DNA from: Candidatus Gemmiger excrementavium
Lineage (GTDB): Bacteria; Bacillota; Clostridia; Oscillospirales; Ruminococcaceae
NCBI GenBank assembly: GCA_019116485.1
Contig: DXBO01000121.1
Coordinates: 1 to 44,399 of the forward strand
Length of the DNA stretch: 44,399 nucleotides
Direction of reading: 5' to 3'
In this document: in pieces, positions 35,956-38,415 of the stretch
Numbering within the stretch: position 1 is the stretch's first letter
Layout of the letters: every line of letters starts with the position of its first letter
Notes under the pieces: generated by a model
What the model was told of the DNA's origin: nothing
Database searches by the model: none
What the model saw: only the letters and a program-made list of their open reading frames with translations
Made by a program: the position numbers and the translations under genes

Positions 35956-36684
35956 ATGCCGCACCGCTATTTTACCAGAGAATTGGCCAATGGGCAAGCG
36001 GCCCTGACCGGCAGCGACGCCCACCACCTTGCCAACGTTATGCGGGGCCGGGTGGGAGACGAGGTAGTGCTGTGCGGCCCCGACGGGTTGGAATACACCG
36101 GCACCGTCACCGCCATCCTGCCCGGCCGGGTGGAGTTTGCGGTCAGCGAGGGCGCGCCCAGCAAGGCGGAGCCCAATGTGGAGGTAACGTTGTTTGTGGG
36201 ATACCCCAAGCAGGGCAAACTGGAGGAGATCATCCGCCACAGCGTGGAACTGGGTGTGAGTTGTATTGTGCCGTTTTTCAGCCGCTACTGTGTGGCCGCC
36301 CCCAAAAAAGAGGACGCCAAAAACGAGCGATACAACCGCATCGCCGCCGAAGCCGCCAAACAGGCCGGGCGGGCCATACTGCCCCGGGTGGACCTGCCGC
36401 TGGAGCATTTTGCCGCCCTGTGCGGCGCGCTGAAAGACTACGACAAGGTGCTGTTTTTCTATGAAGGCGGCGGTGCCCCGCTGCGGGAACTATTGCACCC
36501 GGGCTGTGCCGGGCGTATCGCCCTGGTCACCGGCAGCGAGGGTGGCTTTTCCCCCGAAGAAGCCGCCGCTCTGCAGGCTGCCGGAGCGCTGACCGTGGGG
36601 CTGGGGCCCCGCATTCTGCGGTGTGAGACCGCCCCCCTGGCTGCCCTGACCGCCGCCATGCTGCTGACCGGCAACCTGGAGTAA
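35956..36684 (+). CDS. rsmE: 16S rRNA (uracil-1498-N3)-methyltransferase
   Basis: RsmE methylates U1498 in the decoding region of 16S rRNA. The 242-aa SPOUT-family protein has an N-terminal PUA-like domain (with HHLANVMRGRVGDEVVLCGP in part) and a C-terminal knotted SAM-binding core with VTGSEGGFSPEEA and LGPRILRCETAPLAAL. Its ribosome site lies in the end of prmA. Both products modify the ribosome. The gene ends at the edge of the palindromic non-coding block and has no classical terminator. Confidence 0.96.
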   Translation: MPHRYFTRELANGQAALTGSDAHHLANVMRGRVGDEVVLCGPDGLEYTGTVTAILPGRVEFAVSEGAPSKAEPNVEVTLFVGYPKQGKLEEIIRHSVELGVSCIVPFFSRYCVAAPKKEDAKNERYNRIAAEAAKQAGRAILPRVDLPLEHFAALCGALKDYDKVLFFYEGGGAPLRELLHPGCAGRIALVTGSEGGFSPEEAAALQAAGALTVGLGPRILRCETAPLAALTAAMLLTGNLE

Positions 36685-36721
36685 CCCATAGTATGGCGGG
36701 CAGAACCGCCGCGACACAGAA

Positions 36722-37009
36722 AATTCCCCTGCCTTGCGGCAGGGGAATTGAGACCGTCGAAAAAGTATAAAACCGTCTGCGCCGGCGGACATGCGCCGAC
36801 CGGCGCAGACCCATACAGGGAAATTTTACGGCAAATTGTGTGCGAGACGCAGGGCGTCGAGTGCGCGACTTGCCGTAAAATTTTGTCGAGGGGGTGTCCA
36901 AGAGGGGGAATAGGACCGTCAGGCAATTGCCGTGCGGGCCTGTTCCCCCTTTTGCAGCGTGTCGAGTTTCTCGACACGCTGAATTCCCCTGCCTTACAGC
37001 AGGGGAATT
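36722..37009. repeat. Composite palindromic non-coding element
   Basis: This fills the 337-nt gap between convergent rsmE and the merR-type gene. Its parts in order are: dyad 36722-36749 (12-bp arms AATTCCCCTGCC, loop TTGC); arms GTCTGCGCCGG/CCGGCGCAGAC (36775-36785, 36800-36810); 14-bp arms at 36821-36834 and 36870-36883 enclosing GACGC/GCGTC; an AGGGGGAA/TTCCCCCT pair (about 36903-36952) enclosing GGCAATTGCC; arms GCGTGTCGAG/CTCGACACGC (36957-36966, 36970-36979); and dyad 36982-37009. The first and last dyads match at 26 of 28 bases. It is not coding and lacks T runs, so it is not a plain terminator. It could be a MITE/REP-like element or a structured RNA. Confidence 0.8.
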
Positions 37010-37021
37010 TTGCGTTTGGGT

Positions 37022-37477
37022 TCAGTTTTCACCATGGCCCTGGGCATGGGTGAACGCGGCCCGATGTTCCGGCGGGATATCCTCCACAGTCTGGCCGTCG
37101 TGAATGGACGTTGTACCGGCGGCTTCCGAAGTCTCATAGTACCAGAGCTTGTAGTCCAGCATGGCCAGGGTCTTTTGCAGCTGGGCCATCTGCTGCTGCA
37201 CGGCACGGCGGCGGTTGACAAACAGCTGCAGCCGCTCCGGGATGGTGGCATCACCTTCCCGGCAAAGATCAATATAGCGGCGAATTTCCTTGATGGACAA
37301 TCCCGATTGTTTCAGGCATTCGATGACGGTGAGCCATTCGTAATCGCTCTCTTTGAACATGCGGATGCCGCCGTCGGAGCGCTCTACAAAGGGCAGCAGC
37401 CCTTCTTTGTCGTAATAGCGCAGCGTGGAGGGGGCCACCCCCAGCCGCCGGGCCATTTCACCTACGGTGTACGGCAT
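37022..37477 (-). CDS. MerR family transcriptional regulator
   Basis: The 151-aa protein has the N-terminal winged-helix domain of MerR proteins (YTVGEMARRLGVAPSTLRYYDKEGLLPF in part, residues 3-30), the RMFKESDYEWL wing, and a coiled-coil dimer helix (about 78-115). It lacks the C-terminal cysteines of metal sensors, so it is nearer to the AdhR/YraB-type aldehyde or general stress group. The effector is unknown. It follows a nucleotidyltransferase gene by 8 nt in the same operon. Confidence 0.9.
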   Translation of the reverse strand: MPYTVGEMARRLGVAPSTLRYYDKEGLLPFVERSDGGIRMFKESDYEWLTVIECLKQSGLSIKEIRRYIDLCREGDATIPERLQLFVNRRRAVQQQMAQLQKTLAMLDYKLWYYETSEAAGTTSIHDGQTVEDIPPEHRAAFTHAQGHGEN

Positions 37478-37485
37478 GGGCTGCC

Positions 37486-38415
37486 TCAGAACAGCTTGTC
37501 GGTGGGGTACAGGCCGTCGGCGCTCATCTTCTGCAGGGCTGCCACCAGTTCAGGTTTGTCTTCACGGTAGGTAATGCCAAACCATTTGTCGGCGCTGGTC
37601 AGCACATGGACATCGGCCTTGCCGCTCTGCAGGGCCGTCGTGACCACGCTGGGCAGGTAATATTCACACTTGAGAGGGTTGACCGGCAGGCTATCGCGCA
37701 GGAATTGGGCGAACCCGGCCTTGGCCTCGGCCACATAGCCGGGGGTAAAGCCCCACAGGTTCATGGAGACCACCGTATCCGCAGGCAGGTCGGTCCAGGT
37801 GGCGCCGCCGTCCTCGGTAAAATGGATGCCGCCGGCGTAGGGTTCGATGCAGGTGCGCTCGGTGACGCTGACCAGGTTGCTGTTCTCGTCGGTAACGCAG
37901 ACACCCCGGCTGACACTGCCGTTGGCGCTGACTGTGTTGCCCAGCAAGAAGCCCACCATGGACCAGGCATAGCGATCTCCGTCGGCGTGGGTACTCAGGT
38001 AGTCGTAGATCAGCCGGAAGCCCTGGGGGCCGTAGTAGTCGTCAGCGTTGATAACTGCAAAGGGCGCGTCGCCAATTGCTTCCTCCGCCACCAGGATGGC
38101 GTGGGCGGTGCCCCAGGGTTTGACACGGCCTTCAGGCACGGTGAAACCTTCGGGCAGCTTTTCCAGCTGCTGGAAAGCATAGCGCACCTCAAACCCGGCA
38201 CGCTGGGCGCGTACGCCCACAGCCTCTTTGAACGCCTGCTCGATCTCGTGCTTGATGATGAACACCACCGTCTCAAACCCGGCACGGCGGGCATCGTACA
38301 GGCTGTAATCAATGATTGCCTCGCCGCTGGGCCCCACGGGGTCGATCTGCTTCAGACCACCGTAACGGCTGCCCATACCGGCGGCCATTACCACAAGGAT
38401 CGGTTTTTTCGCCAT
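37486..38415 (-). CDS. Sugar nucleotidyltransferase family protein
   Basis: The 309-aa protein has the NTP-transferase signature VVMAAGMGSRYGGLKQIDPVGPSG in part at residues 7-30, and INADDYYGPQGFRLIYD, the metal-binding region of sugar-phosphate nucleotidylyltransferases. The sugar and nucleotide are not readable. It is distinct from RfbA. ATG at 38415 has GGAAGGAG. An upstream in-frame extension covers the promoter and is rejected. It is first in a two-gene operon with the MerR regulator. Confidence 0.88.
   Translation of the reverse strand: MAKKPILVVMAAGMGSRYGGLKQIDPVGPSGEAIIDYSLYDARRAGFETVVFIIKHEIEQAFKEAVGVRAQRAGFEVRYAFQQLEKLPEGFTVPEGRVKPWGTAHAILVAEEAIGDAPFAVINADDYYGPQGFRLIYDYLSTHADGDRYAWSMVGFLLGNTVSANGSVSRGVCVTDENSNLVSVTERTCIEPYAGGIHFTEDGGATWTDLPADTVVSMNLWGFTPGYVAEAKAGFAQFLRDSLPVNPLKCEYYLPSVVTTALQSGKADVHVLTSADKWFGITYREDKPELVAALQKMSADGLYPTDKLF

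Follow-up and report, generated by a model that had tools for sequence, protein, structure and literature searches.

A probable IS1182-type MITE between two copies of a terminator-like hairpin in Candidatus Gemmiger excrementavium

Introduction

The convergent genes rsmE and merR of Candidatus Gemmiger excrementavium are separated by a gap in which positions 36722-37009 consist almost entirely of inverted repeats. What is this palindromic stretch, how did it come to lie there, and how might the neighbouring genes keep their transcript ends? We addressed these questions in the window, i.e. the whole 44,399-nucleotide stretch that was analysed (contig DXBO01000121.1 of assembly GCA_019116485.1, forward strand), and by comparison with the genus and its wider family. 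The original prediction, made from the letters of the window, described one composite element of six palindromic modules with matching ends, and suggested either a mobile MITE- or REP-like family or a structured non-coding RNA.

Entry into hairpins has been described within the IS1182 family of insertion sequences (ISs). In their passages on target choice, Furi et al. (PMC4923244) and Wan et al. (PMC5678879) report that IS1272 enters hairpins and deletes or replaces all or part of them. Duplication of the whole hairpin is drawn by Wan et al. as the alternative pathway b of their model, for which the legend of Fig 13 and its accompanying text give no example.

Results

Layout of the locus

The predicted inverted repeats were all recovered when we recomputed them (36722-36733/36738-36749, 36775-36785/36800-36810, 36821-36850/36854-36883, 36899-36926/36927-36954, 36955-36966/36970-36981 and the end dyad 36982-37009, the last being contained in the longer arms 36976-36992/36999-37015). 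The predicted folding energy of the + strand was -186.9 kcal/mol, against -108.65 +/- 5.37 for shuffled sequences (z -14.6), and that of the - strand was -166.2 (z -12.0); on either strand, none of 100 shuffles folded as low. The palindromes are therefore genuine and far above chance. The two 28-bp end dyads differ by two mismatches, i.e. the identity of 26/28 that had been reported for them is correct. They had also been said to lack the T run of a terminator, which is half right: AA immediately precedes the left dyad (AAAATTCCCC) and TT immediately follows the right dyad (GGGGAATTTT), so that a single ancestral hairpin would have been bordered by a short A tract at its left and a short T tract at its right.

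In the same genome most of the other copies match only what lies between the end dyads, and the flanks examined show other border hairpins. The end dyads are thus a duplicated target that lies outside the element, rather than two of six modules of it, and the layout of the locus is target hairpin, element, target hairpin (Table 1). The 28-bp target itself looks like a two-way terminator of rsmE and merR. The commonest form of the left terminal inverted repeat in the family is CAGACTGTCGAAAAA; the window copy has G in place of C as its first base.

Table 1. Features of the rsmE-merR region, in window coordinates
Feature	Position	Strand	Remarks
rsmE (RsmE family 16S rRNA methyltransferase), upstream convergent gene	35956..36684	+	
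Left target copy, 28-bp terminator-like hairpin AATTCCCCTGCCTTGCGGCAGGGGAATT	36722..36749	.	26/28 direct repeat with 36982-37009; outside the part common to most other copies
Element, probable 232-bp IS1182-type MITE	36750..36981	+	Borders set by the flanks of other copies
Left terminal inverted repeat GAGACCGTCGAAAAA	36750..36764	+	Common to IS1182-family ISs
Predicted core hairpin H1, conserved apical GGACAUG	36775..36810	+	13 pairs, 8 with double-sided changes; 99.4% of cells paired
Predicted core hairpin H2, several pairs G-U in nearly all copies	36818..36886	+	25 pairs, 11 with double-sided changes
Predicted core hairpin H3 (AGGGGGA...UCCCCCUU)	36900..36953	+	21 pairs, 9 with double-sided changes
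Terminal hairpin CAGCGTGTCGAGTTTCTCGACACGCTG, includes the right terminal inverted repeat	36955..36981	.	Common to several MITEs otherwise unlike
Right target copy, hairpin AATTCCCCTGCCTTACAGCAGGGGAATT, TT after	36982..37009	.	Direct repeat of the left dyad
MerR-family regulator gene, downstream convergent	37022..37477	-	Best NCBIfam match NmlR, under its cut-off

Copies in the genome, the genus and the wider family

At E<=1e-5, 28 stretches of the organism's own assembly (G000; 2.5 Mb in 177 contigs, a 94% complete draft) match the element, although some of them belong to one and the same copy. Among the 35 genomes of the genus that were searched, the own genome included, 28 hold at least one matching stretch. 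A mobile MITE-like family, as originally proposed, is therefore indicated by its many copies. In the wider family the nucleotide search gave matches in 5 of 119 genomes, and the terminal hairpin with up to three mismatches was found in 7 of 197. Among the named records listed as matches, the terminal hairpin occurs in many Gemmiger and uncultured Oscillospiraceae and in some Anaerofilum, Faecalibacterium UBA1360, Subdoligranulum and Anaerotruncus colihominis. The copy number in the own genome is likely to be an underestimate, because several of its contigs (C68, C76, C77, C102, C108, C134 and C146) have a terminus within or close to a copy, and the draft is probably broken by this repeated element. 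The 3' end of a gene faces the element in 38 of 39 copies, a value that is no more than indicative, since the reading of gene context was crude and went wrong on the merR side for the window copy.

The left part is missing from some copies that retain the right end. One locus of the own genome (L124, G000:C118:4830-4856) consists of a 27-bp terminal hairpin by itself, next to a terminator-like hairpin and with no adjoining element, and may be an excision trace or an end-only remnant.

The gap in relatives that lack the element

In six relatives (G021, G008, G034, G025, G026 and G002) the rsmE-merR gap is 87-123 bp long and free of the element. Each of these gaps has a single strong hairpin towards merR; towards rsmE there is a weaker palindrome, in all six as well as in the window. 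However, the sequence of the strong hairpin varies between species and differs from that of the window's hairpin, so the six gaps show the state of the gap without the element and not the exact ancestral target.

Duplication of the target hairpin

We carried out a census of target duplications, starting from at least 130 copies whose two ends lie 60-520 bp apart and for which 60 bp of sequence was available beyond either end. Removal of repeats and opposite-strand doubles gave 124 copies, among the matches listed, with copies broken by a contig end left out; a repeat was called when the direct repeat between the flanks scored >=13. By this rule 75 of the 124 listed copies have a direct repeat at both borders, compared to 7 of 4000 pairings of flanks taken from different copies. 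The 75 repeats are 13-42 bp long (median 25), and include exact repeats of 39 bp (L274), 36 bp (L206), 33 bp (L028) and 25 bp (L022, L038 and L095). They are largely hairpins: 69 of the 75 fold below -4 kcal/mol, against 59 of 124 control 28-mers, and in 63 of 74 no more than 3 nt separate the hairpin from either end of the repeat. The 8 nt before the repeats are 49% A and the 8 nt after them 41% T, which fits two-way intrinsic terminators.

In three copies (L002, L222, whose element is 221 bp, and L249) the loop is reversed between the two repeats, and the same reversal is seen at the contig ends L290 and L292 of another Gemmiger genome (G030), provided that both belong to one IS. Inspection by eye showed that in L037 and L098 the repeat covers only one arm and the loop. 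No repeat was found by the rule in the other 49 of the 124 listed copies, 30 of which have a strong hairpin in the right flank and 30 a strong hairpin in the left flank.

Ends and habit common to IS1182-family insertion sequences

Nine ISs of the IS1182 family from the same bacterial family, taken as two-ended where end motifs on both strands surround a match to the transposase (L345 was omitted, as one of its motifs lies elsewhere), have ends identical to the left end of the MITE at 12-14 of 15 positions. Four of the nine lie between hairpin repeats, i.e. L333 (1583 bp; 29-bp repeat), L337 (1562 bp; 39), L338 (1510 bp; 31) and L343 (1504 bp; 20-21). The other five are without matching hairpins, L341 having an 8-bp repeat and L336, L339, L340 and L360 a different hairpin on each side. 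A hairpin nevertheless stands against both ends in eight of the nine, and against the end in all 12 of the one-ended ISs (about 20 have the end motif) that were picked by eye and folded. The proteins of L333, L337, L338 and L343 score 389-423 bits with NF033551 (cut-off 270), by which NCBIfam classes them as IS1182 transposases, and contain Pfam DUF772 and DDE domains. Repeats of 0-60 bp are reportedly given for this family in ISfinder. The IS1202 family, which was our first guess on the ground of its long target repeats, was dropped, as both the ends and the transposase point to IS1182.

Two of the two-ended loci with different hairpins on the two sides, L339 (756 bp between the ends) and L360 (639 bp), combine IS1182 ends with a partial transposase and are possible intermediates between IS and MITE.

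In G030, fragments of IS1182 elements begin with the same end motif directly after a hairpin, and such fragments co-occur there with a related MITE. A relative of the G030 transposase was found in 27 of 297 genomes of the wider family (E<=1e-20). Within the genus, searches with NF033551 and with the G030 transposase each gave matches in 6 of 35 genomes, one match being above the family cut-off; neither query found an IS1182 transposase in the own draft genome (94% complete).

A search for partner elements by unmatched ends yielded further MITEs only. Among these was a second, unrelated family of about 152 bp in uncultured Gemmiger sp. Lapin-028 bin58 (L205, L214, L222, L182 and L248), which isolates the short ends as the common feature: all that it has in common with the main MITE is CAGACCGTCGAAAAA / TTTTTTGACACGCTG. 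Its copies are 95-100% alike, and the family looks recently active. Four of the five have hairpin repeats, of 17, 18, 32 and 39 bp, and the copy in L222 has no flank repeat. As elements that are nearly identical are flanked by repeats of 17-39 bp, the length of the repeat follows the hairpin.

The element at 36750-36981 thus shows most of what would be expected of a MITE, being too short for a transposase at 232 bp, present in many copies and equipped with IS1182-like ends and with the hairpin duplication of its parent type; a parent IS was not found in the same draft genome. The ends and the hairpin-duplicating habit that it has in common with IS1182 ISs indicate a non-autonomous MITE of IS1182 type, and the REP-like alternative of the original prediction fails on those same ends, which are those of DDE insertion sequences.

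The conserved core

The interior was aligned from 39 sequences, i.e. the window copy together with 38 cores that were left when 95 distinct ones had been thinned at ~90% likeness. The alignment gave three hairpins, in which 98.8% of 2301 cells are paired, compared to 41-50% in slid controls, and 28 of the 59 pairs have double-sided changes, a result reached in none of 500 shuffles. A structured RNA had been among the original suggestions, and this strong covariation supports it for the interior, as far as the modelled fold goes; the single copy with no covariation in relatives that was named as the refuting case is not what the copy search and the alignment gave. There are 322 G-U cells against 15 A-C cells, and at six of the pairs G-U is seen in 35 or more of the 39 sequences. 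This excess points to one folded strand, although the asymmetry is partly built in by the use of that strand for the structure prediction. At the apex of H1, GGACA hardly varies, its common form being GGACAUG. On the opposite strand of the window copy the covariance model matched weakly (40.6 and 26.5 bits, against 197.6), as expected from palindromes.

Of 297 genomes from 126 genera, the core model matched 33 genomes in 21 genera at E<=1e-3 and 18 genomes in ten genera at E<=1e-6, these E-values being rough and calculated per single genome. Matches between 1e-6 and 1e-3 were left out of membership, as they may be ordinary hairpins. At least five of the 14 listed loci at E<=1e-6 (L368, L370, L371, L372 and L379) lie, by eye, between duplicated hairpins. 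Also by eye, L166 and L238 have extra hairpins inside the apical region of H1, so the core seems to grow by hairpins set within hairpins.

No Rfam family was matched: for positions 36000-37800 the six matches up to E 5 were all far under their gathering scores, and ten core loci gave none at the gathering threshold. The core model had no match at E<=0.01 in 15 IS1182-bearing loci, so the core does not form part of the ISs concerned.

In some species cores occur without the terminal repeats (L126-L145 are mostly of this kind), some of them at the same place in several species. Five orthologous sets of such end-less cores, defined by their flanks, showed compensatory changes in two sets, one-sided changes that kept the pair in three and broken pairs in three, with seven broken pairs in all (4, 1, 2, 0 and 0). 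Template switching within palindromes could produce part of the core covariation, but fits the lasting G-U pairs less well. On the modelled structure, the core is probably kept as a folded strand, and our most economical guess is that it is a structured RNA or a transcription-blocking array that travels with the element.

These features could also be read as those of a chromosomal structured RNA gene that lies by chance between two terminators, one for each convergent gene, with mobility being secondary or ancient. The near-complete pairing and its covariation, the excess of G-U over A-C cells, and the end-less copies at the same place in several species, with compensatory changes in two of five orthologous sets, all suit an RNA gene. 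However, each flanking hairpin nearly repeats the other, at this locus as in 75 of the 124 listed copies, the six relatives have one strong hairpin and no core at the locus, MITEs of unrelated interior share these ends and likewise lie between hairpin repeats, and seven of the compared pairs are broken in the orthologous sets. We regard an RNA gene placed in this way by chance as unlikely.

Discussion

The stretch 36722-37009 is very probably one insertion of a non-autonomous MITE with the ends of the IS1182 DDE family, for which a whole terminator hairpin would have been duplicated by an IS1182 transposase acting in trans, which would leave the neighbouring genes their transcript ends. What was observed is a repeat family, target duplications of variable length that are flush with hairpins, a gap with one strong hairpin and free of the element in six relatives, and ends and a target habit common to complete IS1182 elements; from these we infer a hairpin that works as terminator, its cruciform, mobilisation in trans and a benefit of kept termination. 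In the proposed mechanism, a transposase of the IS1182 family would act in trans on the ends of the element; its target would be the foot of a hairpin, here an intrinsic terminator, probably extruded as a cruciform; and the element would come to lie between two complete terminators, so that both neighbours would retain a transcript end. Against this stand the searches that found no IS1182 transposase in the own draft genome, the 49 of 124 listed copies without a repeat, the five of nine ISs without matching hairpins, the two mismatches in the 28-bp repeat, the G for C at the left end, and the differing hairpins of the relatives.

It is very unlikely that the target was instead handled as in IS1272 and TnSha1, in which case the hairpin would have been removed and the flanking dyads would be unrelated terminators. 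Those elements belong to the same family and, in the passages of PMC4923244 and PMC5678879 on target choice, enter hairpins, often terminators, with no sequence preference, and the 49 copies without a repeat would be as expected; in the same passages, however, IS1272 loses the stem-loop and makes no duplication, whereas the present MITE duplicates the whole hairpin, both copies being present here at 26/28 identity, and repeats are found in 75 of the 124 listed copies and, at 20-39 bp, in four ISs. Most of the copies in the census already contradict a replacement of the stem-loop.

Retro-insertion of a structured RNA, in the manner of the group IIC introns, which like the present MITE favour sites beside terminator hairpins, would agree with the RNA-like core, the terminator target, the variable repeat length and the copies that lack the left part and keep the right end. 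It is nonetheless highly improbable: the inverted repeats are of DDE type, ISs with DDE transposases have the same habit, group IIC introns, unlike the MITE, have a ribozyme and a reverse transcriptase, and group II introns are not known to make target duplications. Movement of a REP/BIME-like palindrome array by a RAYT-type (HUH, IS200/IS605-like) enzyme can be practically dismissed, since, although the element is small and, like REP/BIME and BOX sequences, intergenic, palindromic, present in many copies and near 3' ends, its ends match a DDE family, those sequences are not known to have IS1182 ends or a duplicated target hairpin, and IS200/IS605 enzymes are not known to make terminal inverted repeats or long target duplications.

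The preferred reading, an IS1182-type MITE between two copies of its target hairpin, has partial counterparts among described elements. MITEPye1 of Paracoccus yeei is likewise non-coding, intergenic, predicted to fold and bounded by IS1182-type inverted repeats (18 bp), but is described with 4-bp direct repeats and 1-3 copies in chromosomes (PMC11578231, in its account of this element), whereas the present MITE has hairpin repeats of 13-42 bp and a core with covariation, and matches 28 stretches of a single genome. ISCaa15 (PMC3196728) and ISPse1 (PMC3281130), as characterised in the corresponding parts of those papers, are also members of the IS1182 family, with inverted repeats of 16-18 bp, but have 4-bp repeats. 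At the level of titles and abstract openings, we found no description of hairpin-duplicating MITEs in the literature on IS1182/MITE target sites and on Faecalibacterium MITEs, which is weak evidence of novelty. With that reserve, an IS1182-type MITE that doubles terminators and has an RNA-like conserved core appears to be new, while MITEs of IS1182 type and the hairpin targeting of IS1272 are known.

A joint reading of core and ends can be offered tentatively and with some doubt. The core would be a structured RNA family, new and widespread among these gut bacteria, which IS1182-type ends move from one terminator to the next and which some species have fixed without ends under selection for the RNA fold; the transposase would spread it by a stem-loop insertion that duplicates its target through a closed-hairpin intermediate, leaving the flipped loop of L002, L222 and L249. 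The fold of the core, found in ten genera at E<=1e-6 and in no Rfam family, poses the separate question of why a transposon without genes keeps an RNA-like fold.

The hairpin-targeted insertion described for IS1272, in the parts of the published accounts cited above, loses the hairpin, and the opposite outcome is seen in 75 of the 124 listed copies. The length of the repeat would be set by the hairpin and not by a fixed stagger, and the duplication branch of the hypothetical model drawn by Wan et al. (PMC5678879, Fig 13 and Discussion) becomes testable. The finding also suggests how an element can occupy the terminators of its neighbours and yet leave their transcript ends intact.
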